A stretch of DNA of 30,697 bases from a virus: positions 1-30,697 of the IMG/VR virus record IMGVR_UViG_3300028844_000212; one strand, written 5' to 3'. Positions 10,602 to 30,697 of the stretch are shown here, piece after piece. Position numbers and translations under genes: made by a program. The notes beneath the pieces were generated by a model. The model saw only the letters and a program-made list of their open reading frames with translations. It had not been told where the DNA came from and did not search any database. Within the stretch, counting starts at the first letter, position 1. The number at the start of each line of letters is the position of its first letter.

Positions 10602-13600
10602 TGACAACACCCGCAAGACCCGGCTCATTTACTGGAGCGACAGATAACGCTGCTAGTGGTGGTTTGTTTACTGATACATTAATTGACGGTATCCCTGATA
10701 TAATTGGAGTTGATGTTGACCGTGCAGAAACTGCTGCAACAAATGCGGAAGCATCTGCTACTACAGCAACTACACAAGCGACAAGTGCAACAGCATCAGC
10801 CGCAACAGCGACTACACAAGCTACAGCAGCGTCAACAGATGCTGCAAGTGCATTAGCTTCTAAGACTAGCGCAACAGCTAGTCAGGCAGCCGCTACAGCA
10901 AGCCAAACAGCAGCAGCTGCTTCAGAGACTGCAGCAGGAACTTCAGCTACTAATGCTGCTGCTTCTCAATCTGCAGCTGCCAGTAGTGCTACATCAGCAG
11001 GCTCATCAAATACAACTGCCGCTCAAAGCGCTAACTCTGCATTATCTAGTGCATCGAGTGCATCAACCTCAGCTGGTACAGCAACTACACAAGCTACGAG
11101 CGCAACTGCGTCGGCAGCTACCGCAACTACTCAAGCCGCAAGTGCTACGACACAAGCCGCAGCTGCTTTAGTATCTAAGAATGCAGCCGCTGCTAGTGAG
11201 ACAGCTGCTTTAGCATCTAAAAATGCAGCAGCCGCTTCAGAAACTGCAGCAGGGACTTCAGAGACTAACGCTGCTGCTTCAAAGACTGCCGCTGAAACTG
11301 CTGAGACTAATGCTGAGACTGCTGAGACAAATGCTGAAACAGCAGAGACTAATGCAGCGGCAAGTGCTACATCTGCCTCAACAAGTGCAACCAATGCAGC
11401 TTCAAGCTTAACAACATTTCAAGGATTATTTGTAGCTTCTTCTTCAGCTCCAGCATCACCAGATGTAGGAGATTTGTGGTACGATACTACAAACTCACAA
11501 TTAAAAGTTTATGTAACTGGATCGCCAGCAAGTTGGCAAATTGCAGGAGCTTACCTTCAAGGATTAATTGCAAACCATACGTTTACTTGTACAGCAGGAC
11601 AGACAGTATTCACAACTGATGATGCTTCAGGGACAATGTCTATAGATGTTGCGGCTAACGTCTTTGCATATCTCAATGGTGTTAAGCTTATTGGTGGCGG
11701 AACAGATTATTCAATATCAGGTAATACGATAACGCTTACATCAGGAGCTATTGTCAGTGATGTATTATATGTTGATATATTAACTAAGATATCTACAACT
11801 CAAGAAACAGCTTTGAATGCTCTGGTTACCCAAGCGACTGCTGCAAAAACAGCGGCTGAAACTGCGGAAACAAATGCGGAAACAGCAGAGACTAACGCTG
11901 CTACTTCTGCAACGGCGGCAGGAACTTCAGCAACTAATGCGGCTACTTCAGCAACTAGTGCAAGTAACTCTGCTACTTCTTCGGCTACAAGCGCGACTTC
12001 TAGTGCTGGAAGCTTAACTTCTTTTAACGATATATACCGAGGAGAAAGCAGTACAGCTCCCTCTTCACCTGCAACTGGCCAGCTCTGGTATGACACTACA
12101 AATACTGCAATGAAGGTTTACTCAGGTTCTGCTTGGACAGCAGCCTATGTCTCTGGTACTGGTTTCTTAGCGACCACAGGTGGTGCACTTACAGGAGCTG
12201 TGACAACTACTAGCACATTCGATGGAAGAGATGTAGCAGCTGATGGTACAAAACTTGATACTATAGAAACTAATGCTGATGTCACAGACACAGTTAATGT
12301 AACTGCGGCTGGTGCTTTAATGGATAGTGAGGTTACAAATCTCGCACAAGTTAAAGCCTTTGATTCTAGTGATTATGCTACAGCTGCTCAAGGTACATTA
12401 GCTGCTGCGGCACTTCCCAAAGCTGGTGGCACTATGACAGGTACAACTTCCCATGGTGATAATGTTAAAAGTACGTGGGGTACTGCACCCGACTTAGAGG
12501 TATATCACACTGGTTCTCATTCAAGAATTGCAGATGTTGGTACTGGGAAGCTACAGCTAGGAAGTGCTACTCAGGTTGAAATATTAAATGGAGATTTCTC
12601 AGAGCCTCTAGCTCAGTTTGTTCCTGATGGTGCTGTAACTCTTTATCACAACAATGCAGCTAAAATTGCCACAACAGCCACAGGAATAGACGTAACTGGT
12701 GAAACAGCTACCGATACACTTAATGTAAAGAGTGGTACTACTGCTGATTCTACTGGACAGCCAAGTGGAAACTTTGCTGCTACTGTTTATCACGCAACTA
12801 ATAGCAGCTCATCTCACGGTTTACTGGTTAAAAATAACTGGGCGGCAACTGCATCAACAGTTTTTGAAGCCGGATTAGACATTAGTGGAGGTGCGTATAG
12901 ACAATATCATAAAATAGACGGAACCGGTCAAGCTTTCTGGTCACCAGGAAACGTAGAACGTATGCGTGTAACTGGCACAGGTCTAGAAGTCACAGGCAAT
13001 GTTGCTGTAAGTGGTACAGTAGATGGTCGAGATGTAGCGACTGACGGAACTAAACTCGACGGAATAGAAGCCTCAGCCGATGTGACTGATGCTACTAATG
13101 TGACTGCCGCTGGTGCTTTAATGAAAACTGGCGGTACGATGACAGGTCTACTTGTTACTAAGACGCCCACTAGCACTACGGTAGCGGGTGCAAATGACAA
13201 TAGTTTTTCTGTTAGAGGTAATACCACATATCCGGCTGTGATGTCTTTCCACCGAGGTGGTGCTTATGCAGTAAACTTTGGATTATCAACGGCAAATAAG
13301 ATGGAGCTGGGTGGTTGGTCTGCTAGTACTATTAAACATACTTGGGATTTTTCAGGTAACTATACTGCTACTGGAAATATTACAGCTTACTCAGATGAAA
13401 GAGTTAAGGAAAATATAGAAGTAATTCCAGAAGCTCTGAATAAAGTAAAGCAGTTAAGTGGTTATACTTTTGACAGAACGGATTTCGTACCTGACGCAGA
13501 AACTGGTGTAATGCCAGAAACTCGACAGACAGGTGTAATTGCACAGGAAGTAATTAAAGTTCTTCCAGAAGCTGTGATGACAATGGATGATGGAAAGTAT

Positions 13601-13711
13601 GCAGTAGCCTACGGCAACATGGTTGGTTTACTAATAGAAGCAATCAAAGAACAGCAAGTTCAAATAGATGAACTTAAAGCTACTGTAGAAAGTAAAGGAG
13701 TTACATCATGA
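10601..13711 (+). CDS. Long tail fibre with C-terminal S74 intramolecular chaperone
   Basis: 1036 residues. Order: a short N-terminal segment; an Ala/Ser/Thr-rich coiled-coil shaft (about 40-275) of short repeats such as SATASAATATTQ and AETAETNAETAETN; a first DLWYDTTN module (about 282-325); a beta region; a second coiled coil (about 405-480); a second QLWYDTTN module (about 487-530); then beta-rich shaft with GRDVA[AT]DGTKLD twice (near 541 and 808). The S74 domain begins about 929 with SDERVKENI, where S931 and K936 form the expected cleavage dyad, and ends GNMVGLLIEAIKEQQ. Such domains trimerise the fibre and cut themselves off. The role is host binding. The fibre type is clear; the receptor is unknown. 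Confidence 0.88.
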   Translation: MTTPARPGSFTGATDNAASGGLFTDTLIDGIPDIIGVDVDRAETAATNAEASATTATTQATSATASAATATTQATAASTDAASALASKTSATASQAAATASQTAAAASETAAGTSATNAAASQSAAASSATSAGSSNTTAAQSANSALSSASSASTSAGTATTQATSATASAATATTQAASATTQAAAALVSKNAAAASETAALASKNAAAASETAAGTSETNAAASKTAAETAETNAETAETNAETAETNAAASATSASTSATNAASSLTTFQGLFVASSSAPASPDVGDLWYDTTNSQLKVYVTGSPASWQIAGAYLQGLIANHTFTCTAGQTVFTTDDASGTMSIDVAANVFAYLNGVKLIGGGTDYSISGNTITLTSGAIVSDVLYVDILTKISTTQETALNALVTQATAAKTAAETAETNAETAETNAATSATAAGTSATNAATSATSASNSATSSATSATSSAGSLTSFNDIYRGESSTAPSSPATGQLWYDTTNTAMKVYSGSAWTAAYVSGTGFLATTGGALTGAVTTTSTFDGRDVAADGTKLDTIETNADVTDTVNVTAAGALMDSEVTNLAQVKAFDSSDYATAAQGTLAAAALPKAGGTMTGTTSHGDNVKSTWGTAPDLEVYHTGSHSRIADVGTGKLQLGSATQVEILNGDFSEPLAQFVPDGAVTLYHNNAAKIATTATGIDVTGETATDTLNVKSGTTADSTGQPSGNFAATVYHATNSSSSHGLLVKNNWAATASTVFEAGLDISGGAYRQYHKIDGTGQAFWSPGNVERMRVTGTGLEVTGNVAVSGTVDGRDVATDGTKLDGIEASADVTDATNVTAAGALMKTGGTMTGLLVTKTPTSTTVAGANDNSFSVRGNTTYPAVMSFHRGGAYAVNFGLSTANKMELGGWSASTIKHTWDFSGNYTATGNITAYSDERVKENIEVIPEALNKVKQLSGYTFDRTDFVPDAETGVMPETRQTGVIAQEVIKVLPEAVMTMDDGKYAVAYGNMVGLLIEAIKEQQVQIDELKATVESKGVTS

Positions 13712-15030
13712 GTAAAGCAAGAACAATGTCTAACCTCCTGACATCTTCAGGAGATGTGATAACCACTGCCCTCGATAATGTGGGAGCAGCTATTACAGCC
13801 GGTAGCGGAATAGCATTAGGCGATAATGACAAGGCTACATTTGGTGCAGGTGATGATTTACAGATTTATCATGACGGGTCTAATAATTGGGTTAAAGGTA
13901 ATAATGCTGGAAATAATACAGTAGTTGTTGCTCCTGGTGGTACTGGAAGCGTTTTAATTACGAACTCTTCTGGTGATAATATCATTACTCAACAAGGTGA
14001 CGTAGCTATGTTGCATCACAATGGGGCAACCAAACTGGCCACCAAAGCCACTGGCGTAACAGTCACAGGTGAGATGGCTGCAACTACGATGGACCTCTCA
14101 AGCAACGCTGTAATAGATGGCACTGCCCTCGTAACAGGTGTATTAACCACAACTGCGGCTACTGTGCATAATGGTGGCATTACAATGCCTGACGATGCCA
14201 AAGCATTGTTTGGTACTGGTTCTGACTTAGAGATTTATCACGATGGTAGTAATAGTTATATTCATGATAGTGGTACGGGTAGCTTGAATCTTCGGGGAAC
14301 TGATCTGTACCTCAGAAATGCTGCGAATGAGGTTTACGTCATATGCGCATCAGACGGTGCGGTTTCTTTAAGGTATGATAATGTTACTAAACTAGCCACC
14401 AAAGCTACTGGCGTAACAGTCACAGGTGAGATGGCTGCAACTACAATCGCAGCGTCAGGTGCAGTCACTACAGGTCCGCTTACTACTACTGGCGACATAA
14501 ATTTGTCAGGTGAGTTAAATTTAAATGCGGCTAGTAATAATTACATAGACTTTACAGATGCTTTACATATTAGAGCGGCAGGATCGTCCCCCGCTTATGA
14601 AGATTCTATTTATTGTTTAAAAAATGCTCAAACTGTCCTTATGTACAATGGCGCAGGTAAAATAAACACCACAAATACTGGGGTAGGCGTCACTGGTGAT
14701 GTTGTTGCTAGTGGTAACGTAACTGCATATTCAGACCTTAGAATAAAAGACAACCTAGAGGTCATCCCTGATGCTTTATCTAAAGTTGAACAGCTTAATG
14801 GATACACATACACTAGGACAGACTCAGAAGATAAACAAGAAAAGCATACAGGTGTTATTGCTCAGGAAGTATTAAAGGTATTGCCCGAAGCTGTAGTCTT
14901 AGGAGAGACACCTGAAGATAATATGGCAGTAGCTTACGGCAACATGGTTGGTTTACTCATAGAAGCTGTTAAAGAACTTTCAGATAAGGTTAAAGAATTA
15001 GAGGAGAATCAAAATGGCTTTACCAAGTAG
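13708..15030 (+). CDS. Second tail fibre/spike with S74 chaperone
   Basis: 440 residues, starting in the previous stop (ATGA overlap). The body is beta-structured with two copies of G[DS]DL[QE]IYHDGSN, and TKLATKATGVTVTGEMAATT appears twice, marking a 119-residue internal repeat. The S74 domain begins with SDLRIKDNL (S342 and K347 as the dyad), followed by HTGVIAQEVLKVLPEAV and GNMVGLLIEAVKE. This chaperone is clearly paralogous to that of the upstream fibre. It probably forms a trimer that attaches to, or competes with, the long fibre. The C-terminal helix after the domain (ELSDKVKELEEN) may help trimerisation. Confidence 0.85.
   Translation: MSKARTMSNLLTSSGDVITTALDNVGAAITAGSGIALGDNDKATFGAGDDLQIYHDGSNNWVKGNNAGNNTVVVAPGGTGSVLITNSSGDNIITQQGDVAMLHHNGATKLATKATGVTVTGEMAATTMDLSSNAVIDGTALVTGVLTTTAATVHNGGITMPDDAKALFGTGSDLEIYHDGSNSYIHDSGTGSLNLRGTDLYLRNAANEVYVICASDGAVSLRYDNVTKLATKATGVTVTGEMAATTIAASGAVTTGPLTTTGDINLSGELNLNAASNNYIDFTDALHIRAAGSSPAYEDSIYCLKNAQTVLMYNGAGKINTTNTGVGVTGDVVASGNVTAYSDLRIKDNLEVIPDALSKVEQLNGYTYTRTDSEDKQEKHTGVIAQEVLKVLPEAVVLGETPEDNMAVAYGNMVGLLIEAVKELSDKVKELEENQNGFTK
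14032..14089 (+). repeat. Internal fibre repeat, copy 1
   Basis: 58 nt matching 14389-14446 with 3 mismatches by hand count, offset 357 nt (119 codons, in frame). It includes a 38-nt identical run, unusually strong for an old protein repeat, so it suggests recent duplication or gene conversion. Confidence 0.85.
14389..14446 (+). repeat. Internal fibre repeat, copy 2
   Basis: Second copy of the 58-nt block described for 14032-14089; both copies lie in the same reading frame of the second fibre gene. Confidence 0.85.
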
Positions 15031-16586: not shown

Positions 16587-16777
16587 TGTATACAGCGGTG
16601 CTACTGATATGTGTACTTGTATCACCTTATAATTGTTTTCAAATTAAAGATGACTTAGGTCCTTACACAACAATAGAACAGTGTGCGACTCGTGCCACTG
16701 AAATTAAAGATAATTGGGCTATACCCTTACATTTTCCTATGGGATTTAAATGTATAAGCCTAGGAGAAGGAGTATGA
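16586..16777 (+). CDS. 63-aa secreted cysteine-containing protein
   Basis: The start at 16586 overlaps the previous stop (TAATG). Residues 1-14 (MYTAVLLICVLVSP) are a short hydrophobic signal or anchor; the rest is a polar domain with cysteines near 17, 33 and 56 and a YTTIEQCATRATEI helix. The cysteines suggest periplasmic disulphides, which fits export. The C-terminal codons overlap the next start by 4 nt (ATGA). I have seen similar short proteins in marine phages without a known function. Confidence 0.65.
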   Translation: MYTAVLLICVLVSPYNCFQIKDDLGPYTTIEQCATRATEIKDNWAIPLHFPMGFKCISLGEGV

Positions 16778-17205
16778 AATGGATGTTATTAATTTGGTTA
16801 ACGCTTACATTAGCCGCGTGCTCGAGCTTAGACCTATCAGATATTGTTACGGGCGCTGGCGCTACTGGAGCAGCGGTTGTTGCGGCTACTGTAACTTCGA
16901 ATCCTGTAGTCATTGCTGGAATAACTGCAGGCGGTGCCATTGCGGGAGGAGTAGCGATGGATGATGCTCCACTGCAAGTAGCAGATTATGGTGGAGCTGA
17001 TGGTGAAATAAATTCTTTTTATGAACTTATGACTTTCGCTATTGCAAACTTCATGCAGCATATGGTAGGTATAGGAATACTACTCTTAGTAATATGGTTT
17101 TTAACCGGATACTTAGGTATGCGTAAGCGTAGACCAGAAGAAAAGCAATTACAGAAACAGCAGGAAATGCTACTTAATAAGATAGGCAAAATGAGGGATT
17201 TTTAA
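16774..17205 (+). CDS. Phage lipoprotein with glycine-zipper and membrane span
   Basis: The start at 16774 follows GGAGAAGGAG and overlaps the previous stop. The 143-residue product has a lipoprotein signal MKWMLLIWLTLTLAAC with lipobox LAAC, so C16 should be lipidated. Residues 27-62 are Gly/Ala/Val-rich (GAGATGAAVVAATV, GITAGGAIAGG), like glycine-zipper membrane segments. A second hydrophobic stretch at 96-113 (MVGIGILLLVIWFLTGYLG) is followed by a basic tail and a short helix (RKRRPEEKQLQKQQ). It thus contacts the membrane in up to three ways. An outer-membrane or superinfection role is possible; no family name is assigned. Confidence 0.7.
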   Translation: MKWMLLIWLTLTLAACSSLDLSDIVTGAGATGAAVVAATVTSNPVVIAGITAGGAIAGGVAMDDAPLQVADYGGADGEINSFYELMTFAIANFMQHMVGIGILLLVIWFLTGYLGMRKRRPEEKQLQKQQEMLLNKIGKMRDF

Positions 17206-17206
17206 T

Positions 17207-17887
17207 ATGACACGTAAATTACTTTTCTCAATAGCCTTTGCAGCTTTACTTGCAGGCTTTATGACACCGCTGATGATAACGAAAGCTTGGTCTGCAGATT
17301 CTAATACAGTCAGTTCAACTGTTGTAACAGATAAAGCACCGCCTACAGCTAATGCACCTTCAGTAGTAGTTAATAACTCTGATATATGTAAGTCAGGAGC
17401 TGCAGCATCTATACAGACACAGGTACTAGGTATAGCTAGTGGTATAACAATCACTGATAAAAATTGTGAAAGACTTAAGCTGTCTAGATCTTTGTATGCT
17501 ATGGGTATGAAGGTGGCTGCAGTATCGACTCTCTGTCAAGATCCTAGGGTCTTTGATAGTATGTGGATGTCTGGAACTCCCTGCCCGTTTATGGGTAAGA
17601 TCGGTGATGAAGCTAAACTTATGTGGCAAAAGAACGTAGAGTTTATACCTGAAGAATCTGAGATAAGATTACGTGAAGAGATAGCTATAATTGCTAGAGA
17701 TGAAGAGGCTATTATAGCAGCTGATAAAATACGGTTAGATAAAATAGCTGCTGATAAAGAACTTAAGAATAAACATAAAGAAGCTTTAGCGCAATCGCGA
17801 GCTCAAGCTAGGGAGTTTCAAGATGCAGATAAGAAACGTATTTGGGCTAACCCTCTTGGCTTGCTCCTTATGGTCTTACTCCTCTAA
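17207..17887 (+). CDS. Secreted four-cysteine coiled-coil protein with hydrophobic tail
   Basis: 226 residues, 1 nt after the lipoprotein stop. Signal peptide about 1-30 (cleavage after AWSA). A Ser/Thr/Pro linker leads to a compact domain with C61, C87, C110 and C126 in NNSDICKSGAA, KNCERLKLSRSLYAMG, LCQDPRVFDSMW and GTPCPFMGKIG, probably two disulphides. Then a long charged helix (about 147-210, IRLREEIAIIARDEEAII) and a hydrophobic C-terminus NPLGLLLMVLLL. The domain resembles a family I know from marine phages without function. The final 65 nt are read in another frame as the signal peptide of the next gene. Confidence 0.75.
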   Translation: MTRKLLFSIAFAALLAGFMTPLMITKAWSADSNTVSSTVVTDKAPPTANAPSVVVNNSDICKSGAAASIQTQVLGIASGITITDKNCERLKLSRSLYAMGMKVAAVSTLCQDPRVFDSMWMSGTPCPFMGKIGDEAKLMWQKNVEFIPEESEIRLREEIAIIARDEEAIIAADKIRLDKIAADKELKNKHKEALAQSRAQAREFQDADKKRIWANPLGLLLMVLLL

Positions 17888-19466
17888 CGCAGCTGAGCCA
17901 TGTCCATCAGGTACTGTGGGTCTATGTGATCCATCTGTATTAGAAACAATTGTAGAAACTATAACTGAGACTTCTCAGAATGATGGGCAAGGTACTTTAA
18001 CAACTACCGTTACTGTAGTAGACACAACTACGGTTACAGTTACTAATACAGACTCAGGTGATATTCTTGATGGTGATAATGGATTTGTGGCTTCTACTAA
18101 AGAAGGAGATATGGATTCAGACTGGGGCGGTGAAGGACCCGCTTCTATGCCAAGTGGCACAGGATGTGGCGCGCTAGGAACAGATAAGTGCGCATCAATA
18201 ACCGGTAGTGGTAATACAACATCTACAATGGGTGTGCCTAATATGGGTTCAACATTTATACAGACTATAGATATATCAGATTTAAATATAACTAAAGGCG
18301 GTAAGACTACATATAGTATAAAAGTAGATAAGCAAGATTCAAGTGATAGTATATACATGCATATCACAGGTACTAACGGATCTGCTGTAAGCTTTGCAGG
18401 AACTGACGTGCTATCAGCATCTGGTGTTAATTCAGGTTATGCTGAATATACAGGCGCATTCGACTTTGCAGATAGTCTTACTACAATAATAGTAGAGATA
18501 GGTGGTCGAGATATTAACTTAGCGATAGGGCCGTTATTCGACGACGTTAGTGTAAATGTACTATATAATGTAATAAGTACTATTGTATTACAAACAATTA
18601 CTACTGTTGAGCAATACGTATATAACAATGATGGAGCTACTGAGACAGAGATAGAGATCGTTAAAGATATATTTGATCATAACGATATAGTAGAACCTAC
18701 AGATGGTGATATGTATTTTGAACCAATAGAACCTAATGAAGATATATCTTATGATACTATTGAAACAGAATTAGATATGCCTACATTTGAAGTAGACTTT
18801 GAAATGGAATTTGAATTACCAGATTTTGAAATTGAATTTGATATGCCAGATATAAACGTATCAGATATTGAAATTGAAATGGATTTAGAAGTAATGCCAC
18901 CTCCAGATATGCCTAAACAACCAGAGCCTGATATAGCTCCATCTACTAATGTAGAAAAACCGGAGCCTGAAATGCAGGTAACTGAGGTAAAGCCAGAACC
19001 AGAGCCTGAGGTAGAAGCTAAACCAGAGCCAGAACCTGAGCCCGTGGATGAGCCTAATAATGATCCGGAACCTGATGTAAAGGAAGAAGTAAAAGAAGAG
19101 CCTACGGAAGAAATTAAAGAAGTTAAAGAAAAACCTAAAGAAATTAAAGTTGTAGATAAAAAAGAAGAGCCTGTTAAAGTTCAGAAGAAAATTGCTAAGC
19201 AGAAAGCTGGCAGTAAACTTGTTAAAGATATGGGCGACGCAAGTAGGTATGATTCAGGTAATCAGTTAAAGACTTTAATTATTATGAATGTTATAGCTGA
19301 TACTAAAAGCTTTTTTGTATCTAAGCAATTTAAAGAAATAGAAGGATTCTTTACAAGCGAGGTATTACCAGATAGTAATATCCCAGATAATAACGTCGCA
19401 GCATATTTAATGTATGTTGATGATGGTGGAACTATGAGTGATCTAATAGATCTGCAATATAAATAA
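17823..19466 (+). CDS. Large secreted protein: lectin-like domain plus Pro/Glu spacer
   Basis: 547 residues. GGGAG at 17811-17815 supports the ATG at 17823, 65 nt inside the previous gene. Signal peptide about 1-24 (ending SNAA). Residues 25-130 are Thr/Gly/Asp-rich with C27, C35, C115 and C123. Residues 140-250 look like a beta jelly-roll, with IDISDLNITKGGKTTYSIKV and the ending GPLFDDVSVNVLYN common in carbohydrate-binding modules. An acidic stretch of alternating residues follows (FEVDFEMEFELPDFEIEFD, 322-340), then EPEPEP and KE-rich spacer (366-460) reminiscent of TonB, and a compact C-terminal domain (465-547). It is probably an exported protein bridging the periplasm or displayed on the surface. 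The family is not recognised. Confidence 0.74.
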   Translation: MQIRNVFGLTLLACSLWSYSSNAAEPCPSGTVGLCDPSVLETIVETITETSQNDGQGTLTTTVTVVDTTTVTVTNTDSGDILDGDNGFVASTKEGDMDSDWGGEGPASMPSGTGCGALGTDKCASITGSGNTTSTMGVPNMGSTFIQTIDISDLNITKGGKTTYSIKVDKQDSSDSIYMHITGTNGSAVSFAGTDVLSASGVNSGYAEYTGAFDFADSLTTIIVEIGGRDINLAIGPLFDDVSVNVLYNVISTIVLQTITTVEQYVYNNDGATETEIEIVKDIFDHNDIVEPTDGDMYFEPIEPNEDISYDTIETELDMPTFEVDFEMEFELPDFEIEFDMPDINVSDIEIEMDLEVMPPPDMPKQPEPDIAPSTNVEKPEPEMQVTEVKPEPEPEVEAKPEPEPEPVDEPNNDPEPDVKEEVKEEPTEEIKEVKEKPKEIKVVDKKEEPVKVQKKIAKQKAGSKLVKDMGDASRYDSGNQLKTLIIMNVIADTKSFFVSKQFKEIEGFFTSEVLPDSNIPDNNVAAYLMYVDDGGTMSDLIDLQYK

Positions 19467-19477
19467 AGGAGTTTGCT

Positions 19478-20260
19478 ATGGCAGAAGTAGAATATAAGGG
19501 AATAAAAGTAGGCGGCAGCAAACTGCTACTTATTATACCGTTACTTGGTACAATAGGTGGTGGGCTATGGGCAGGCTTTGAAGCGTATACACGTTATATC
19601 GCCATGGAAGAAAAGATTGCAAACTTTGTATCACCTGATTTGTCACACATAGATAATTTTATGGTTAAGACAGAGGGTAAGTTTGAACTACTTGAAGCAG
19701 AATTTATATCAGTACAAGAGATACTTGAGACTGAGTTAACCTCGTTAAAAAATATAGACGATGCTACATCTGCTGTTATACGCGAGCAAGTTAATAGTAT
19801 TAAAGCTACTGCTGCTAAACTGCAGACAGACTTACACGATTTACGTATGGACTTGAATCAAGATATAGCACACAGTAATGATGTATTAGATAAATCTATA
19901 GATAAAGTTAATAGTGATATTGATAAACAAGAAGCTAGACTTGCTAAACAAGATGAACGTAATAGAGAATTAATTGAAGAGCAAGAAGATAAACTATCAA
20001 AACAAGACGATCGTAATAGACAATCATCTGAAGATATTACTAAAGCAAGCTCTAATAACGTTACTATAGTTAGAGGTCTTATAGCTAGTAGTGAAGAACG
20101 TAGAGATAAAGTAGTAGATAGATTAGATGCTAAGATTGCAGAGACGCAAGTGCTTATAGATAACATGATAAGAGAGAATAGAAAATTTGTTGATGGTTTA
20201 AAATCAGAGCTAGATACTAAGATAAAGAAAGCTCTTGTTAATCCGTTACTAGGTAAATAA
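19478..20260 (+). CDS. Membrane-anchored coiled-coil protein (conserved in marine phages)
   Basis: 260 residues behind AAAGGAG. The N-terminus MAEVEYKGIKVGGSKLLLII leads into a hydrophobic span (about 15-35, ending GGGLWAGFEAYTRY). The rest is a long coiled coil (about 60-245) of Asp, Lys, Glu and Gln with a near repeat L[AS]KQD[ED]RNR at about 155-185, and the protein ends KKALVNPLLGK. I recognise the N-terminal pattern from marine phages, where the protein is annotated hypothetical or structural. A single anchor with a rod-like domain would suit an envelope-spanning tether or an ejection helper. It is the last gene before the reductase hairpin region. Confidence 0.72.
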   Translation: MAEVEYKGIKVGGSKLLLIIPLLGTIGGGLWAGFEAYTRYIAMEEKIANFVSPDLSHIDNFMVKTEGKFELLEAEFISVQEILETELTSLKNIDDATSAVIREQVNSIKATAAKLQTDLHDLRMDLNQDIAHSNDVLDKSIDKVNSDIDKQEARLAKQDERNRELIEEQEDKLSKQDDRNRQSSEDITKASSNNVTIVRGLIASSEERRDKVVDRLDAKIAETQVLIDNMIRENRKFVDGLKSELDTKIKKALVNPLLGK

Positions 20261-20322: not shown

Positions 20323-22038
20323 ATGCACAATATAGACTATCCTGGACCAGTAACTTCGCTATCACAAGAGATCGATGAGATGAAGTATAGGCAAAAAGGG
20401 GAAAGCTTTAACGATAAAATAAAAAGAATAGCAAGAGCTTTGGCTGATGACAAAGAGCATCAGTATAGTCTGGAAGATATTTTAGGTACAATGCGATTTC
20501 TACCAGCAGGTAGAGTACAATCTTCAGTAGGATCTAATAGAATTACCACAGCATATAACTGCTTTGTATCAGGTACAATAGAAGATAGCATGCATAGTAT
20601 CATGGAGAAAGCAAGTGAAGCAGCTGAAACAATGCGTAGAGGCGGTGGCATTGGTTATGATTTTAGTAAGATCAGACCAAGAGGCGACAAAATTAAATCA
20701 CTCGATAGCCAGTCTAGCGGTCCTATATCCTTCATGGGTATCTTTGATGCTGTGTGTCAAACCATCGCTAGCTCGGGACACAGACGTGGGGCGCAGATGG
20801 GTGTCCTCAGGATCGATCACCCGGACATTGAGGAATTCATTGCTGCTAAACGTAATTCTGATAAGCTTACTGGTTTTAATATTAGTGTAGGTATCACTGA
20901 CAAATTTATGGAGGCCTTAACCAATGACGGGAATGATGATTTTCAACTCAGCTATGAGGGAATCGAATACAAAACAATATCAGCGCGTGAACTATGGGAC
21001 TCCGTTATGGAATCGACTTGGGACTGGGCTGAACCGGGTGTATTATTTATTGACCGTATAAGTGAGATGAATAATCTTTTCTATTGTGAAGAGATAGTAG
21101 CTACAAATCCATGTGGTGAGCAACCGCTTCCACCTTATGGTGCGTGCCTTTTAGGCTCGTTTAATTTAACCAAATATATAGTCGACAATACATTTAATTT
21201 TAAACAGTTTAAAGAAGATATACCGATTGTAGTGCAAGCTATGGATAATGTTATAGACAGAACCATATACCCACTCAAGCAGCAGTCTGACGAAGCCAAA
21301 GACAAGCGTAGAATGGGGCTTGGCGTTACTGGCTTAGCTAATGCAGGGGAAATGTTAGGGATGCCTTATGCGTCTCCTGAGTTCCTCGTATGGGCTGAAA
21401 AAATATTTGCATGTTTACGAGACAACTGCTATAAAGCATCAGCAAAACTAGCTGGTATTAAGGGATGTTTCCCACTTTATAGGGAAGAATATTTACAATC
21501 AAACTTCATTCGCACTTTACCTGCGTCTGTAAAAAAGGAGATACGTGAAAATGGCATTCGCAATAGCCATCTTATTTCTATCGCTCCCACTGGTACCATT
21601 AGCCTTGTGGCTGATAATGTTAGTGGTGGTATTGAGCCAACTTTTAGCCATGCTTATGAACGCATTATTCAAACGTTTGATGGTCCTAAAACGGAAAACG
21701 TGGAGGATTATGCATACGCACGTGGAGTAAAAGGCCGATCAGCAAACGATATATCGGTACAAGATCACTTAGCTGTTCTATTATTAGCACAGCATTATGT
21801 AGACTCAGCATGTTCAAAGACATGTAACGTTGGAGATGATACCTCATATGAAGACTTTAAACAAGTATATGTTGACGCATGGAAAGGTGGGGCAAAAGGC
21901 TGCACTACATTCCGCATGTCAGGTAAAAGATTTGGCATACTTAATACTATAGAAGAAACTGTAGAAATGGCAAAAGAAGAGGGACCAGTCGAAGCGTGCT
22001 TCATAGACCCTCAAACTGGACAAAGAGAATGTTCTTAA
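20323..22038 (+). CDS. nrdJ: Adenosylcobalamin-dependent (class II) ribonucleotide reductase
   Basis: Reduces ribonucleotides to deoxyribonucleotides for phage DNA synthesis, using vitamin B12 to start the radical, so it needs no NrdB partner or oxygen. 571 residues, no ATP-cone domain. Key residues: C80 (in AYNCFVSG) and C275 (PYGAC) as the reducing pair, radical C264 in NPCGEQPLPPYGA with N262 and E266; the 11-residue gap between C264 and C275 equals C408/C419 of the Lactobacillus enzyme. The substrate loop APTGTISL is at 421-428 and DNVSGGIEPTFSH follows. C559 and C570 near the end are candidates for the C-terminal relay pair. A weak GGGGA precedes the start. It is the only clear metabolic gene among virion genes here. 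Confidence 0.93.
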   Translation: MHNIDYPGPVTSLSQEIDEMKYRQKGESFNDKIKRIARALADDKEHQYSLEDILGTMRFLPAGRVQSSVGSNRITTAYNCFVSGTIEDSMHSIMEKASEAAETMRRGGGIGYDFSKIRPRGDKIKSLDSQSSGPISFMGIFDAVCQTIASSGHRRGAQMGVLRIDHPDIEEFIAAKRNSDKLTGFNISVGITDKFMEALTNDGNDDFQLSYEGIEYKTISARELWDSVMESTWDWAEPGVLFIDRISEMNNLFYCEEIVATNPCGEQPLPPYGACLLGSFNLTKYIVDNTFNFKQFKEDIPIVVQAMDNVIDRTIYPLKQQSDEAKDKRRMGLGVTGLANAGEMLGMPYASPEFLVWAEKIFACLRDNCYKASAKLAGIKGCFPLYREEYLQSNFIRTLPASVKKEIRENGIRNSHLISIAPTGTISLVADNVSGGIEPTFSHAYERIIQTFDGPKTENVEDYAYARGVKGRSANDISVQDHLAVLLLAQHYVDSACSKTCNVGDDTSYEDFKQVYVDAWKGGAKGCTTFRMSGKRFGILNTIEETVEMAKEEGPVEACFIDPQTGQRECS

Positions 22039-22059: not shown

Positions 22060-25000
22060 ATGGCAGAAGAAATTATTTCTGTTACAGATATAGCATCACA
22101 AGGAGTGGTCATTGATACTCCTCCAGTTGCATTAAGTCCTAATGTATTTACAGATGTACGTAACGTTAGATTTAAAGACGGTGCTGTTAGAAAAATATCA
22201 GGTGAGTTATTACTTAATGACATCACAGAAGATTTAGTACCAGCTAACGAAACTTTTGGACAAGTAAGATACTTCGCTGTATGGGAAAGTCCTAACAGAA
22301 CTCCTACTGGTTGCTACTATATATGGGTAGTAGACTATGTTAGAGCTAATATAGTTGTTGGACAAAAGATATATGTGCAAGATCACACAGGAACTAAGCG
22401 AGATATAACACCTGCTGCTATGACAAACGGATTTACGTTTACTATTACAGGCTGGCAGCACACTATATTCTCAGGTGGATTTGCTTTTATTATTAATAAT
22501 GGAATTGACAGACCACATTATATATTAGATACTCCAGGTAATACTAATATCGCTAATCTAGTATTAGCTGAGTTACCTGGCTGGGATGGGTATGATGTTA
22601 ACTCTACTGTTATTACAGATACATTTAGTACAGGTAACATACTAACATTTGATTTAGGACAAAAAGTAGATTTTGTAAATACATCTGTTGAAGTTACTGT
22701 AGCAGCCGCTGCAAGAACTGCACAAGTAGGTACGCCAGCAGGTTCAGGTACTGTAAACACAGCCAACTTTGTGCCAGGTGCTTTACCAGCTTACACGAGC
22801 CTGCCATCGGTCGGTGCTACTAATTTTCAATTATATAATGACGCAGCCACTAATACAACTATATGTTATATAGGTGGTATGGCTGATGGTAATGAAGTTA
22901 TAGTTAAAATAAAATCTCGTGTACCTGTTAATGTAACTGCAGGTATTATACAATCATTTGGTAGTTTACTAGTCGCTGGAGACTTAACAGAAAAAAGTAG
23001 TGCCAATGGCGAGGTTGTTAGACGATTATCAGGTGTTGTTAAGACATCAGATGTAGCAGTGCCAGGCGCTGTACCTAATAACTGGGATCCGTTTGCAGCT
23101 GGCGTTAGTACAGCTGATGAATTTACATTATCTGAAACAAACGTTATTACTGAAATGAAATCATTACAAGGTAACATGTATATCTATAGTACAAATAGTA
23201 TACACGTTATGAGACTAACAGGTAATGTTAATATACCTGTGCAGTTCGGTCCAGTTACTGATGAGTATGGTTGCTTAAGCCGTGGCTCAGTTATGGAATA
23301 TGATGGTAAACATTTCGTTGTGGGTAACAATGATCTCTATACTTTTTCAGGTAACCCAGGAAATATACAATCTTTATCTGATGGTAAGATAAGAGAATAC
23401 TTTTATAATAATTTAAACCCTATACATGAAGCTAAGATGTTTACACTACTTAACCATCATGAGAATGAGATATGGGTATGCTATCCTACACTAGCTTCGT
23501 TCAGAGGTGAGTGTGATGAAGCATTACTATGGAACTATAGAGACAATACATGGACTATAAGAGACCTTAATAATGTAGTATCCGGAGGTACAGGACCTAT
23601 TAAAGGTGGAGGTGTCCCTACAGCTACGATAGCTATCACAGGTAATTCAGGTAATGCTGGTTATACAAATGTAGGTAGACGCGAAACTCAAGCTGTAACT
23701 ATAAATGGTTCAACACCTAAAGCTACAATAGGTACTAAAGCAATTAAAACAGTTGCGGTTGGTACATTCAGTAACTTTACAACTGATGTGCTTGAAGTAG
23801 TCGACTTAACCGTTACAGGTACGACAGGTCCAAATGTAGTTAACGCAGTAAATACTCTTACATTCCCTGCTGCAGCTACGTTTACGTATGATAGAGATGG
23901 TTCTACATATCTTGATGGTGGTGCAAGTGCTGTTATTAATGGTGATGCATCTATAGGTAACGCAAGTTTTCCAGCTATCACTATACTTGGTACAAACCAA
24001 GCAGATGGCGCTACAATTAATATGACTACTTTTGTAGCAGCTGTAAAAGATTATATAAATAATAACAACGCTTTTGCTGATTTCACAGCAACTGCGTCTA
24101 CTAACGTACTGACACTTACCTCAGATCAACCAGGGGCTAGAGTTTTCACTACATCCACTTTTGCAATATCAGGAGGGACGACAAGTAACTTAACAATAGC
24201 CTCATCTACAGCAGGTGTAGGTGTATATGGTATAACAGCCGCTCTTAGCCCTGCTATATCCATGCAAATTACAGCTCCGGCTGTGGCAGGTGTTCATGCG
24301 GCGATTGACGAAACAGTACTTACAGCAATCAATCTTTCAAATCAAGCAGCGATTCAAGCGGATATTGTTACTAAGCTTCAAGCTATTACTGTGTTTAACG
24401 GTAGTAATAGTGCTATATATTCTGTAGATACTAGTGGTGGTGTCATACGATTTACAGCTATAAACGGTGGTAATTATGGTGCTTTAACAATAGCATTCAG
24501 TACTGCATATAGTGGTACTTCATATACAGAGACTACATTCGGTGGTAACTTAACTTCTAATGTTTCAGTTGTTACAACAGGTGTTGACAATAATCAGCCT
24601 CAACCATTGATGACAGTATCATTTCCAGACGGTACAACTACAGATTCAGTAATACTTACAGGCACTCAGACACGTGCTACAGTTGTAGCAGCAATCAGTA
24701 CTATTATAAACAGTAATGCGAGCTGGTCTACTACTACAGGTACAGGATTAGTAACAGCTACTGCTGCGGCGGTAGGGTTACAATCATCAAACTTTGATGT
24801 AACTATTACAAGCATAGGTGCATTACCTGCAGGATTCGCTAGCTCTACATTTACAGAAGCTCAGACTAGGGCAGGCGTAGCAGCAGCTAGTACTACAGAT
24901 ACAATCACGTTGACACCTCCGCTTGGTTCAGCAGTAACTGTAAACTTTGATAATACTAGTACGTACCCTGCTTATGATCCTGATACTGGTGGAAGCACTG

Positions 25001-26343
25001 CTTCTGTTACGGCAACCGAAATTGCTACAGCATTACAAGCTGCATGGAATGCCAGCGCATCTAGTACAGCTCATTTCTCTGTAGTTAGAGCAGGTGCTGT
25101 ATTAACTTTTACAAGTGTATCACGAGATGATATTGTAGGTGAGTTTAGTTATTCAGTTGCGCCAGGTGATACGCGTACAGGTACGTTAGTATCTCCATTA
25201 ATTACTAATTCTGTAGCAGGTAATATTACTGTTACAGCAGGTATAGCATCTATATTTTCTAAGATGACTCGTGTTACAATTACTATTAATACAGCATCTG
25301 GAAGTAGTGTGATATTTGATAGACACTATGGTGAAGGGCCTGGTCGATTACTTGATCCAGACTTTACCGCAGGTATAAGCGATTCAACTTACGGTGATTC
25401 AGGTGTAACTAGTGATGCAGCATATCTTAATTTATATTATGATCCTGCTAAAGACTTAGATAGAACTAATACCTCAGAGCAAGCTAAACCTAATGGTACA
25501 GTTACTGATACTCAAACAGCTTTACTTAAAGTCCTAACAGATGTTAGCACACAAGATGCTCTTGAGCTTACACCTGATAGTACATCAGCTCCTACTAATA
25601 TATTAATTAATCCTAGACAATTTGGAATTGCAGCAAACTACGTAACAGGCTTATCTCCTAATACAGAAGTTGTAGCTTCAAGAGTAGCTCCGACCACAGC
25701 TCAAATATTAGCAGTGGCTATTGGTAATACTGTTGCGACAACAGCGCCCACATTTGATAATACTGGGACTACTATAAGTACTGCATTTGATATAGTTAGA
25801 TCATGGGCAGATACTCAAGTTAATCCTAATGAGATATTTCCTATATTCGCACAGAGTGGGTATGTGAGTGGTGTGTTGTTTAACAGGTTACGAGCTGCTG
25901 ACTTAGGATATGACTTTGGTGGTACAGCTTATATATCATATGCTGAACGAGAACAAATGTCTATTACTCCTAACTTTGATACTGAAACTTTAGGTAGCTT
26001 AGCCTTATGGGCAGATGGTGGAACGATTGCGACTGTAGGTGGTACTCCTCAAAGAGCTACTTTACAAGTGCGAGCTCGAGCAACTAATAACCCAGGTGAA
26101 TTACCTTATCTCACGACTGCAGAAGATGATACACAAACTGATGCACGTAGAAATAAGTTAACTGTAAACGATTTTGTAGTTGGTAGTTCATATAAAACTG
26201 ACTTAAGAAGTACAGGTAGATTCTTAAACTATCGTATCGATGATGCAGCAGCTAGTACATCAGCTGGTTATACAGGTAGTAATACTAGAGCTTGGAATGT
26301 ATCCGGTTTACAACTACGTGTTACTAAAGGAGGAGCTAAGTAA
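22060..26343 (+). CDS. Tail nozzle / tail tubular protein B-like, greatly enlarged
   Basis: 1427 residues against about 790 in T7 gp12. The N-terminus SQGVVIDTPPVALSPNVFTDV with NVRFKDGAVRKISGE is the family signature of podovirus nozzle proteins, and the end (RFLNYRIDDA, then WNVSGLQLRVTKGGAK) is also typical. Family-like segments run to about residue 510 (e.g. EYGCLSRGSVMEYDGKHFVVGNNDLY) and resume near 1250. Between about 640 and 1060 are four diverged modules of about 105-114 residues, each beta - helix - beta, with helices VAAVKDYINNN, QAAIQADIVTKLQ, ATVVAAISTIIN and ATEIATALQAAW. It would form the distal tail tube through which DNA exits. Ribosome-binding site GGAGGAG. Confidence 0.82.
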   Translation: MAEEIISVTDIASQGVVIDTPPVALSPNVFTDVRNVRFKDGAVRKISGELLLNDITEDLVPANETFGQVRYFAVWESPNRTPTGCYYIWVVDYVRANIVVGQKIYVQDHTGTKRDITPAAMTNGFTFTITGWQHTIFSGGFAFIINNGIDRPHYILDTPGNTNIANLVLAELPGWDGYDVNSTVITDTFSTGNILTFDLGQKVDFVNTSVEVTVAAAARTAQVGTPAGSGTVNTANFVPGALPAYTSLPSVGATNFQLYNDAATNTTICYIGGMADGNEVIVKIKSRVPVNVTAGIIQSFGSLLVAGDLTEKSSANGEVVRRLSGVVKTSDVAVPGAVPNNWDPFAAGVSTADEFTLSETNVITEMKSLQGNMYIYSTNSIHVMRLTGNVNIPVQFGPVTDEYGCLSRGSVMEYDGKHFVVGNNDLYTFSGNPGNIQSLSDGKIREYFYNNLNPIHEAKMFTLLNHHENEIWVCYPTLASFRGECDEALLWNYRDNTWTIRDLNNVVSGGTGPIKGGGVPTATIAITGNSGNAGYTNVGRRETQAVTINGSTPKATIGTKAIKTVAVGTFSNFTTDVLEVVDLTVTGTTGPNVVNAVNTLTFPAAATFTYDRDGSTYLDGGASAVINGDASIGNASFPAITILGTNQADGATINMTTFVAAVKDYINNNNAFADFTATASTNVLTLTSDQPGARVFTTSTFAISGGTTSNLTIASSTAGVGVYGITAALSPAISMQITAPAVAGVHAAIDETVLTAINLSNQAAIQADIVTKLQAITVFNGSNSAIYSVDTSGGVIRFTAINGGNYGALTIAFSTAYSGTSYTETTFGGNLTSNVSVVTTGVDNNQPQPLMTVSFPDGTTTDSVILTGTQTRATVVAAISTIINSNASWSTTTGTGLVTATAAAVGLQSSNFDVTITSIGALPAGFASSTFTEAQTRAGVAAASTTDTITLTPPLGSAVTVNFDNTSTYPAYDPDTGGSTASVTATEIATALQAAWNASASSTAHFSVVRAGAVLTFTSVSRDDIVGEFSYSVAPGDTRTGTLVSPLITNSVAGNITVTAGIASIFSKMTRVTITINTASGSSVIFDRHYGEGPGRLLDPDFTAGISDSTYGDSGVTSDAAYLNLYYDPAKDLDRTNTSEQAKPNGTVTDTQTALLKVLTDVSTQDALELTPDSTSAPTNILINPRQFGIAANYVTGLSPNTEVVASRVAPTTAQILAVAIGNTVATTAPTFDNTGTTISTAFDIVRSWADTQVNPNEIFPIFAQSGYVSGVLFNRLRAADLGYDFGGTAYISYAEREQMSITPNFDTETLGSLALWADGGTIATVGGTPQRATLQVRARATNNPGELPYLTTAEDDTQTDARRNKLTVNDFVVGSSYKTDLRSTGRFLNYRIDDAAASTSAGYTGSNTRAWNVSGLQLRVTKGGAK

Positions 26344-26510
26344 TGGCAATTCTTAATGCGCCGCTTACTAACGATTCTGCTTTAGACTACACTCTATTTG
26401 AATTAGTTAGAGAAGTTAATATTCTTCAAGAACAAAACTTAAAGTTATTACAGGATATTAGAAGTGCAACAAACTTTGCAGATTTAAAAGTAAGGATAGA
26501 TGAAAAATGA
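26343..26510 (+). CDS. 55-aa helical protein of unknown function
   Basis: ATG overlaps the nozzle stop (TAATG) behind AAAGGAGG in the preceding gene, and its TGA overlaps the next ATG (ATGA). The product is a small helical peptide (LFELVREVNILQEQNLKLLQ) ending with a charged tail, probably a coiled coil. Double coupling to structural genes supports it being real. No family recognised; it is the first of the post-nozzle genes. Confidence 0.68.
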   Translation: MAILNAPLTNDSALDYTLFELVREVNILQEQNLKLLQDIRSATNFADLKVRIDEK

Positions 26511-27010
26511 TAAAACCTATTGAGGACAATAGTGTATTCGAAGTAATAAAACTTATGAATAAAAATGTAGCAAAGCATAATGCTGTTGGATATAAAAGAA
26601 ATGAAGCAACATGGATAGCCTTTTTCTTAGATATAGTTAAGAAACAAAAAGACGGTGATCCAAATTATTTTGCTGTTGGTGAATATAAAGATAACAAGCT
26701 AATAGGATTTCTTTTAGCTACAACTTTTAACAGTTACTATAACGGTGTTACTACAATGGACGTAAAAGATTGTATTATGGATGAGAGTTTAAGCACTCCG
26801 TTTACTGTTACTAAATTGTTTGATGCTATGATAGCACATACTAAAACTCATGGTGGAACTAGATGGCGTGCTGATTCAATACGATCTGAACACAACTCAC
26901 ATCAATATGCTAAGCTATTAAATGTAAAATATGGAGCTGAGCTTTACTTTTCAGTTCATGGAGAAATTAATATGGATAAGAATAAAAAGGAGGTTGAGCA
27001 ACATGGGTAG
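26507..27010 (+). CDS. GNAT-like protein in the T7 gp13 position
   Basis: 167 residues. The order helix - helix - strand (YFAVGEYKDNKLIGFLLATT), then MDVKDCIMDES and a late SEHNSHQYAKLLNVKYGAEL with a terminal strand (YFSVHG), fits a degenerate GNAT acetyltransferase fold. The classic acetyl-CoA loop (Q/R-x-x-G-x-G/A) is not clear, so it may be a structural protein of that fold. Proteins of this kind often directly follow the nozzle gene in T7-like phages, where gp13 is an internal virion assembly protein. It overlaps both neighbours slightly. Confidence 0.62.
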   Translation: MIKPIEDNSVFEVIKLMNKNVAKHNAVGYKRNEATWIAFFLDIVKKQKDGDPNYFAVGEYKDNKLIGFLLATTFNSYYNGVTTMDVKDCIMDESLSTPFTVTKLFDAMIAHTKTHGGTRWRADSIRSEHNSHQYAKLLNVKYGAELYFSVHGEINMDKNKKEVEQHG

Positions 27011-27808: not shown

Positions 27809-28864
27809 ATGGTGACTTCAATTAATAATCCTCAAACTATGGGGCTAGGTTTTAGAGATATGAATTCTGTACCTAGATATAATACACCGACAGGTCAGAC
27901 AACTCCGAGACAAGATGCAGCAGCTAACTTAGGTTATGAACGAGGTAAATCAAATCCAATAGGCTTACTTCCTGGTATGAGTGTTCTTAAAGGTCCGTTA
28001 GGATTAGGTAAAAATGATACATTCGGTAATGAAGGTACAACTGATGCACAAGGTAATGTGTTTGATTCTACAGGAAGAGCTTACGACCCTATAACAGGTA
28101 GAGCTGTAGCTTCATATAAAGATGCTGGTACAGGTTTTAATACTTTAAAAAATAGTTACGGTAAATTAAGAAACCACACGGGACCGATAGAGTCTGCGCT
28201 AGGTAGTTACGACAATTCAGTGTATAAATATATGGATGAAAATCCAGGTATGACAAAAGAACAAGCTAGAACTGCAAGACTACGTGGTGAAAATGCACCT
28301 ATGAATACTATAGCGGGTAGAATAAATACTAATACTAGTTCTATGGAAGATAATTTTAATGAAACTGGTGACGCATATATGAATAATAAACCTGTATCTC
28401 CATATGATATAGGCTTTGATGGATCAAGAGCAGGTACTCCTAAATCTACATCAGGTGTATTTGGATCTAATGCTGGTGACATCATACCAACAAATCGTAT
28501 GAGTGAAGGGTTCGGAGTAATGGGCGCTGACTCTGATACATCTATTACTTATGATAATGAGGGTAATTATAAAGGAGGGGATATTAGTATAATGACTCCT
28601 GGTGGTACAATGAGTTCTATAACAGATTCTGTTACTGGTGAATCTATTCAAACAAATACTATGTCTCCGTTACTTAAGCAAGAATTAGATCGTAGAGCAG
28701 GTAAGTTTCAATCAAGTAGAATTGTAGAACCTGATGGTGGTGGACCAAATGGTAAAATAAAATCTGTACCTTCACGTATAGCCGCAAGAAATATGAATGA
28801 GTTTGGAGATGTTATATCAGATGATGGAGATAACTCTACTGATAGTAATTCCGGAGGAAAGTAA
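27809..28864 (+). CDS. 351-aa virion-region protein of unknown function
   Basis: GGAGG just upstream supports the ATG at 27809. The sequence is polar, Gly/Asn/Asp/Thr-rich, with no long hydrophobic segment: MGLGFRDMNSVPRYNTPTGQ near the start, DAQGNVFDSTGRAYDPITGRAV (about 79-100), a helical part YKYMDENPGMTKEQARTAR, and an acidic Ser/Asn-rich C-terminus. The position between gp14-like and lysozyme-domain genes matches T7 gp15, another ejected protein, but no similarity is visible and it is much shorter. Stop overlaps the next start (TAATG). Confidence 0.68.
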   Translation: MVTSINNPQTMGLGFRDMNSVPRYNTPTGQTTPRQDAAANLGYERGKSNPIGLLPGMSVLKGPLGLGKNDTFGNEGTTDAQGNVFDSTGRAYDPITGRAVASYKDAGTGFNTLKNSYGKLRNHTGPIESALGSYDNSVYKYMDENPGMTKEQARTARLRGENAPMNTIAGRINTNTSSMEDNFNETGDAYMNNKPVSPYDIGFDGSRAGTPKSTSGVFGSNAGDIIPTNRMSEGFGVMGADSDTSITYDNEGNYKGGDISIMTPGGTMSSITDSVTGESIQTNTMSPLLKQELDRRAGKFQSSRIVEPDGGGPNGKIKSVPSRIAARNMNEFGDVISDDGDNSTDSNSGGK

Positions 28865-30697
28865 TGCAGATTAAAAAGTATGAAACAAAAGATCGTTATG
28901 GTAATAGTAAGTCTTTTGAATTCTTTGAGGGATCAGCGGATATGGAAGTACCAGGTATGACGAGTATGCCTAACCATCCAGGAGAACCTAAAGGAACTGA
29001 CACAGTACCTGCATGGCTGACACCCGGTGAGTTTGTTATTAACAAAGAAGCTACTGATATGTATGGACCATTGTTAAAGAATATTAATGATGAAGGAAGA
29101 AAGATGCAGAATGGTGAGCCACATAACCATCCGTCTGAAGCTATGTATGCAGCTGCAGGTCAGCCAGTACGTAGAAATAATGAAGCTATGCAAAATCTTA
29201 TAGATAGTAGAGAAGCAGATAGAGTATCATTACAAACTGTTCCTTATGAAAGTAGTTCAATGGATCCTCAAGAAATATATGCTTATTTAATATCTAAAGG
29301 TTTTACTTCTAATGCTGCGAAAGGTATTTTAGGAAATATTAAACATGAAAGTAACTTTGATCCAGCGGCTAATCAAAATACAGGTGGCCCTGGTAGAGGA
29401 TTATTCCAATATGAAGTTGGAGGTAGATACGATACAGATAATAACAATCTTTTAAAATTTGCAGCTGATAACAATGTAAGTCCATTAGATGCTAAGACTC
29501 AACTTGACTTTATGATTTCTGAAATGGATAACACAGATGAGTATGGAGCAGTTAGAAATAAAATCAATATGGCTAAAACGCCAGGAGAAGCAGCTGATAT
29601 TTTTGGATTAGATTTTGAAAAATATAAAGGTGACTTACAACCTAATCGTGCAAAGTTTGCAAACGATTTTATTGTTCGAGAACCTGTAGATCCAGCAGGA
29701 GCAATGGCTCCTAATGAATTCGGAGATATAGATTTAACAGGAGCGATGGCTGCTGATGAAACTATGTATCCAGCAATAACACAAGAAACTTTAGGTAAAC
29801 CTATTAGATCTTTAAAGGAAATAGATAAAGATATAGCAACACTAGAGGCCCGAAATTCAGCACAAGAGGTTGCGACTGAAGATCCTAGTTTTCTCGACAG
29901 GGCCGGAGACTTTATTCGTGATGCTGTGTCTGGTTATAGGGATTTGCGTAAAGACTATCGCAAAAGATATATAGATTATTACAACGCAGATCAAGGATAC
30001 TTTGATAGTATATATAGACAAGCTGGTGGTCCAGTACCTCAGTACTACGCTGTTGGTGATGAAGTAAGAGATTACTACAGAAGCGGAATACCTATGCCGG
30101 GATCAGCGCCAACTTATAATTATTCTAATGCACCTACATTTGAAACTATGGCAGATACTATTAAAGATAAACTTGAGAAAGAAGAAGCAGAGCGTTTACG
30201 TGAGGCACAAGAAGAAAGATTCGGAGCTGTTGATAAATTAAGTATGGATCGTTTACAAACTATGAAATACGCAGAGAAAATAGATGCACTTAAACGTGAG
30301 AGAGCAGAAGCATTGCGAATTGCTTATAATAATAGTTCAGCTCGTGAAGATGCATTCAATAAAAATTATTACACAGGCGTACCAGGAGATGTACCATCTG
30401 CAGATGAGTTTATGAATATTCCAAAAGATACGATGCCTCCAAAGATAGACGTAGCACCTATTGATCCTACGTTTTATGATGCATTTGGTAATCCATATGA
30501 TGATGCAGAACAAGCGCGCACATCAGATGTTATTAATGAAGCAGATTCTAAAGCAGGTATGCAAAGACAAACGCAGATAAATAGCTTAGGTCAGCGAGTT
30601 CCTATTACTGGTAATAATTTTTACAATATACCAGAAAGCGAAGTCAGAGGTATTAATACTGTTAATAGTAATTTAATTGAAGATACATACGATATAA
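28864..30697 (+). CDS. Internal virion/ejection protein with lysozyme domain (partial)
   Basis: The ATG overlaps the previous stop and the frame is open to the window edge (at least 611 codons). Residues 44-64 carry GTDTVPAWLTPGEFVINKEA, a motif shared by many phage tape-measure and internal proteins. Residues about 136-270 form a phage tail-lysozyme domain: IYAYLISKGFTSNAAKGILG, then KHESNFDP with E162 as the likely catalytic acid, and GPGRGLFQYE. QAGGPVPQYYAVGD lies near 367-380, followed by Glu/Arg-rich helices. Such a protein would locally cut peptidoglycan during DNA ejection, as T7 gp16 does with a different enzyme domain. Confidence 0.8.
   Translation, partial: MQIKKYETKDRYGNSKSFEFFEGSADMEVPGMTSMPNHPGEPKGTDTVPAWLTPGEFVINKEATDMYGPLLKNINDEGRKMQNGEPHNHPSEAMYAAAGQPVRRNNEAMQNLIDSREADRVSLQTVPYESSSMDPQEIYAYLISKGFTSNAAKGILGNIKHESNFDPAANQNTGGPGRGLFQYEVGGRYDTDNNNLLKFAADNNVSPLDAKTQLDFMISEMDNTDEYGAVRNKINMAKTPGEAADIFGLDFEKYKGDLQPNRAKFANDFIVREPVDPAGAMAPNEFGDIDLTGAMAADETMYPAITQETLGKPIRSLKEIDKDIATLEARNSAQEVATEDPSFLDRAGDFIRDAVSGYRDLRKDYRKRYIDYYNADQGYFDSIYRQAGGPVPQYYAVGDEVRDYYRSGIPMPGSAPTYNYSNAPTFETMADTIKDKLEKEEAERLREAQEERFGAVDKLSMDRLQTMKYAEKIDALKRERAEALRIAYNNSSAREDAFNKNYYTGVPGDVPSADEFMNIPKDTMPPKIDVAPIDPTFYDAFGNPYDDAEQARTSDVINEADSKAGMQRQTQINSLGQRVPITGNNFYNIPESEVRGINTVNSNLIEDTYDI

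Follow-up and report, generated by a model that had tools for sequence, protein, structure and literature searches.

In short-tailed phages the nozzle is the gate, and a nozzle gene of nearly double length raises the question of what its additional sequence builds and where on the tail it sits. The window analyzed here is a 30,697-nucleotide stretch (IMG/VR record IMGVR_UViG_3300028844_000212) from an uncultured bacterial virus whose relatives include phages SU10 and LUZ24. Its nozzle open reading frame (22060 to 26343, plus strand) encodes 1427 amino acids (aa) and covers the whole interval (24000 to 25230) in which a preliminary description, made from the letters alone, had seen four tandem diverged modules; a longer IMG/VR contig (L001) carries an identical nozzle. 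With T7 gp12 at 794 aa, the protein is indeed nearly twice that length, as the description had stated.

The 1427-aa product matches the virion structural protein family PHROG 3287 (E 2.6e-48) and, in sequence searches of the PDB, the solved nozzles of Pseudomonas phage Pa223 (9nwi, E 8e-36), Vibrio phage VP1 (8zkm, 3e-22), and E. coli phage SU10 (7z47, 2.5e-11). A profile of the nozzle family recovers the same structures at E values of 1e-42, 7e-31, and 1e-15, respectively. A full-length model of one relative (L077), poor at a mean pLDDT of 53, matched nozzle structures, a fold with a seven-bladed propeller, at Z 16 to 20, and its VIA-align match list was filled by propellers, not by the arm discussed below. 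The upstream portal, major capsid protein, and adaptor (the last, of SU10 type, encoded at 9732 to 10601) match the SU10 families PF23899, PF17236, and PF24175, and no T7-type nozzle was found among the PDB sequence matches, PHROGs, and phage-record matches listed. By homology, the protein belongs with the SU10/LUZ24-type nozzles and not with those of the T7 kind, which makes T7 a distant comparator. Nozzles of the former type are hexamers seated below a dodecameric adaptor. The earlier reading of a nozzle with extra domains is upheld by homology, profiles, the model, and copy-number comparison, and its T7 comparison gives way to SU10/LUZ24-type matches. The following parts of the protein flank the array of modules:

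22585 to 22944, plus strand: poorly conserved stretch, residues 176-295, with ~90 extra residues relative to Roseobacter phage CRP-7, lying before the conserved propeller part
22945 to 23604, plus strand: conserved beta-propeller part, residues 296-515, from profile alignment to 9nwi 146-355 and SU10 678-819
25246 to 25779, plus strand: linker between the array and the C-terminal part, residues 1063-1240, mostly modeled at low confidence (pLDDT 28-79)
25780 to 26340, plus strand: C-terminal blade and platform strands, residues 1241-1427, aligned to the LUZ24, SU10, and CRP-7 C termini

Alignment of the C-terminal part places the array between a conserved strand ending at residue ~515 and a strand at ~1258-1275, and in this alignment the linker has no counterpart in CRP-7 or LUZ24. 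The array (residues 516-1240 in these terms) lies after the conserved propeller part and not between blades 2 and 3. In SU10, Trp839, Trp847, and Trp857 of a blade 1 loop anchor the trimeric short tail fiber (PMC9509320); all three were confirmed in the SU10 sequence, and LUZ24 gp56 has a similar three-Trp loop, NLWDDDPNPWDTDTSVW, at the array site, apparently a fiber dock. As the alignment shows, it is the position of this SU10/LUZ24 loop that the array occupies in the sequence. Three closely spaced Trp residues were not found at residues 505-1262, which hold only the widely spaced Trp889, Trp996, and Trp1249, so no SU10-like short-fiber dock is apparent.

This position weighs on the reading in which the array would be a SU10-like nozzle extension, packed on the tail in the virion and straightening at attachment to lengthen the tail. 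The four immunoglobulin (Ig)-like nozzle domains of SU10 gp17 do so, adding 28 nm to the tail together with the short fibers (PMC9509320), and several features are shared with that Kuravirus: the propellers are homologous (residues 363-503 correspond to SU10 679-819 in 7z47), the portal, capsid, and adaptor belong to the same families, and both nozzles carry four extra beta-rich domains. However, in SU10 the domains are inserted between blades 2 and 3, alongside a three-Trp dock, whereas the four domains described here are in the dock-loop position of a nozzle that lacks such a dock. Residues 176-295, the least conserved nozzle part (60% mean pairwise identity), probably correspond to the SU10 blade 2-3 site and offer only their ~90 extra residues. 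We therefore consider an extension of this type unlikely.

The fold of the array was predicted with an AlphaFold2 monomer model of residues 500-1245, for which a 38-sequence family alignment was the input (protein residue = model residue + 499). Mean pLDDT was 77 overall and mostly ~90 across the array, which extends over ~23686 to 25245 (residues 543-1062). Modeled helices coincide with those placed near residues 658, 762, 872, and 986 in the preliminary description, and each has two strands before it and three or four after it. The four segments are thus predicted to form similar strand-strand-helix-strands modules, with the following bodies:

23923 to 24225, plus strand: module M1, residues 622-722, helix 655-667, presumed arm tip (model, profiles)
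24250 to 24585, plus strand: module M2, residues 731-842, helix 762-774 (model, profiles; weakest sequence support)
24595 to 24885, plus strand: module M3, residues 846-942, helix 872-884 (model, structural match, profiles)
24889 to 25245, plus strand: module M4, residues 944-1062, helix 985-998, presumed nearest to the propeller (model, profiles)

To relate the modules by sequence, single-module HMMs were searched for the other modules, with many shuffled, reversed, and non-module sequences as controls. Module-to-module matches spanned E 1.4e-5 to 2e-3, and the best controls reached ~2e-3. The links from M3 to M1 (1.4e-5) and from M3 to M4 (1e-4) were well above controls; those from M2 to M4 (8e-4) and from M4 to M1 (9e-4) were marginal, slightly better than the best controls. 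In hhalign, the M1-M3 pair had a probability of 76% (column-permuted controls: mean, 0.8%; maximum, 26%) and the remaining pairs 0.2 to 10%; the case for M2 and M4 therefore comes chiefly from the predicted fold. Aligning the whole array with itself, as had been suggested, gave no significant off-diagonal hhalign match owing to the shallow family alignment (Neff ~2), and module-wise profiles were required. M1 matches PHROG 29986 (E 2.3e-6), and no Pfam family covers any module. Antibody and titin chains returned by Foldseek from the PDB were rejected as relatives of the array, as their overall rmsd was mostly 15 to 39 Å and they reflect strings of sandwich domains. Taken with the model and the copy-number differences described below, the profiles confirm four homologous repeats.

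Upstream of the bodies, the model has strands that we assign to the modules in the reverse order:

23686 to 23718, plus strand: ascending strands assigned to M4, residues 543-553 (model strands 44-48 and 52-54; Ig-like chain matches)
23734 to 23760, plus strand: ascending strand assigned to M3, residues 559-567 (model; Milano sheath domain match; short relatives)
23788 to 23817, plus strand: ascending strand assigned to M2, residues 577-586 (model; FliD D2-D3 match)
23842 to 23886, plus strand: ascending strands assigned to M1, residues 595-609 (model; 9cuy match)

These assignments come from the first and last residues of aligned structural ranges on the monomer model. The sheath extension domain (SED) of Agrobacterium phage Milano comprises residues 91-203 (PMC10811340), and its contiguous residues 92-203 align in VIA-align with model residues 59 to 443 (109 residues, Z 9.8, rmsd 3.1), so ~276 residues must be skipped. 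FliD D2-D3 matches model residues 78 to 343 (M2), 9cuy matches 98 to 217 (M1), and Ig-like chains match 38 to 561 at a low Z of 3.5 to 4.3 (the outermost sandwich, assigned to M4). Several myophage tail or baseplate chains reach Z 8.8 to 9.8 against a module, in the predicted model only. Together, the ranges probably fit one scheme in which M4 encloses M3, M3 encloses M2, and M2 encloses M1. On this model, the repeat unit would include a strand upstream of the interval originally described.

Natural variation bears on the same scheme, with one segment absent from short-array relatives (n = 5; L077, L078/L080, L081, L082, and L083):

23782 to 24606, plus strand: stretch missing from five natural relatives, residues ~575-849, comprising M1 and M2 with their ascending strands (~275 residues)

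In these relatives, the M3 ascending strand meets the M3 body via a short turn. The deletion takes M1 and M2 with exactly the strands assigned to them and so provides independent support for nesting. If the modules were instead plain tandem repeats, each a self-contained domain like a bead on a string, the helix spacing of 104 to 114 residues and the complete strand-strand-helix-strand bodies would be expected, but the strands at residues 543-609 would be left without a domain of their own, the match to one contiguous domain needs residues ~276 apart, and the deletion keeps the M3 ascending strand beside the M3 body while the other two strands vanish along with M1 and M2. Tandem order is therefore quite unlikely in our view. 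Of the four tandem diverged modules first proposed, the homology stands, and the word tandem yields to the nesting indicated by the structural match ranges and the natural deletion.

Comparison of copy number among relatives, another of the checks proposed, recovered both the nozzles lacking M1 and M2 and an array-free nozzle of 533 aa in the cultured Roseobacter phage CRP-7, located in the same place, after ribonucleotide reductase. Natural nozzles therefore exist with zero, with two, and with four such domains, the count of two being assigned by homology. Between L077 and L082, the short arrays are ~87 to 95% identical and the rest of the nozzles 35 to 78%; when L082 and L083 are each compared with L077, the array is mostly 83 to 95% identical and the rest mostly 33 to 75%, as in a mosaic nozzle. 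Array and propeller thus appear to differ in their evolutionary history. The nozzle tree has very long branches to its outgroup and places the short types at two separate points, in part owing to this mosaic history, so the two-domain type may be either ancestral or a product of loss. Covariation of the short array with the fiber anchor was not used, as it involved two genomes only and was confounded with relatedness.

The genes around the nozzle have features of their own. The ribonucleotide reductase large subunit gene (20323 to 22038) lies within the structural block, directly upstream of the nozzle; the CRP-7 enzyme, also upstream of its nozzle, is annotated in two pieces. Four consecutive genes at 16750 to 20260 encode products of 151, 226, 547, and 260 aa in which we noted apparent signal peptides, membrane segments, or long stretches of acidic, Pro-rich, and coiled-coil character. 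Among the relatives compared, these genes are present elsewhere only in the closest one (L016), and the 260-aa product has a match (E 4e-7) in Pelagibacter phage HTVC115P, to a hypothetical protein; the region resembles an insertion of envelope-type proteins specific to this lineage. The nozzle is followed by a conserved 167-aa protein (26507 to 27010) that resembles an acetyltransferase by eye, with no family match at threshold, and by a product with a phage tail lysozyme domain (28864 to 30696; PF18013, E 7e-28) that is probably an ejection protein. The tail fiber gene (10601 to 13711) is followed by a second S74-chaperone fiber (13708 to 15030).

With a slight lean toward belief, we propose that the nozzle carries an out-and-back arm of four homologous nested domains at the dock loop, a path that rests on the predicted structure and the natural deletion. 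The chain would leave the beta-propeller after residue ~515 and head outward, giving one strand (or a pair) to M4, M3, M2, and M1 in turn; it would then return through the bodies of M1, M2, M3, and M4 and reenter the propeller at ~1241. On a hexameric nozzle, six such arms would extend from the outer edge of the tail tip; with two chain connections between neighboring domains, they might act as stiff struts. The innermost-nested domains would be the outermost in space, and since every additional domain is set into a hairpin of the one before it, they could come or go as a single block. The arms may position a fiber or replace the short fiber, meeting the cell envelope at attachment, and opening of the nozzle may make them swing, in analogy to SU10.

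The same arm can be imagined to read the host receptor itself and set the host range, given its likely surface location and the different histories of array and propeller in L077 versus L082, as is often seen for swapped host-range parts, but this is very improbable because conservation of the arm tip is similar to that of the nozzle core among long-array relatives (72% versus 74 to 77% mean pairwise identity) and it is the tail fibers with S74 chaperone ends that are replaced beyond their N-terminal part. This replacement is found even among very close relatives: compared with a relative whose nozzle is 91% identical, the tail fiber alignment is limited to the first ~180 residues. Together, tip conservation and fiber replacement argue for a structural partner of the arm. 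Of the two roles suggested at the outset, cell-surface contact or fiber docking, docking is still plausible given the location of the array at the fiber-dock loop, and direct receptor reading has become less likely. A bolder version, in which the nested arm is telescoping, has grown and shrunk through gain or loss of the domains farthest out, moves as a cassette from one nozzle backbone to another, and takes the place of the short tail fibers entirely, is speculative, and we doubt that it holds as a whole.

The preliminary description knew of no nozzle with such a repeat, a statement that finds no support in view of SU10 gp17, the crAss001 muzzle, and, from predicted structure, tail tubular protein B of Aristophanes, a T7-like Acinetobacter phage. 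The muzzle of phicrAss001 (gp44) has a nozzle-type propeller, and Ig-like domains with a nested insertion make up much of the protein (PMC10172136). However, its nested part has the crass fold and is not four copies of one module, and its insertions lie between blades 2 and 3 and in blade 3. Of the viral structural matches to the array, the Aristophanes protein is the strongest (Foldseek E 1.7e-6); it has two similar sequence modules by eye, nearer the N terminus than in our nozzle, and its sequence link to the array is weak (E 0.01 and 0.1). The nozzles of LUZ24 (gp56, 513 aa), Pa223 (9nwi), and CRP-7 (gp43) share the compact nozzle of our protein, and those of LUZ24 and CRP-7, unlike ours, have no array. 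The Milano SED (8foy and 8fqc) shares the M3-module fold at 22% identity and, as proposed here, is a surface domain inserted out-and-back into another, but it is a single copy in a contractile sheath with no detectable sequence homology to M3. With no Pfam family for the modules and no match of M3 to PDB sequences even at E 10, the sheath-domain link is structural only. Thus, extra nozzle domains were already known from SU10, crAss001, and, by prediction, Aristophanes, and the module fold was known from sheath proteins. As far as our searches show, the dock-loop position, the probable nesting of a single domain type four times over, and the natural series of zero, two, and four domains are new.

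Overall, relatives of this nozzle are encoded by 187 stretches in one virus collection, yet the array had no tblastn match at E 1 in a phage collection of 50,697 records. If an arm nested from copies of the same domain does occupy the fiber-dock site, it would show that tail tips can evolve by nested duplication, and the natural versions with zero, two, and four domains would form a ready series for testing the role of the extra domains.
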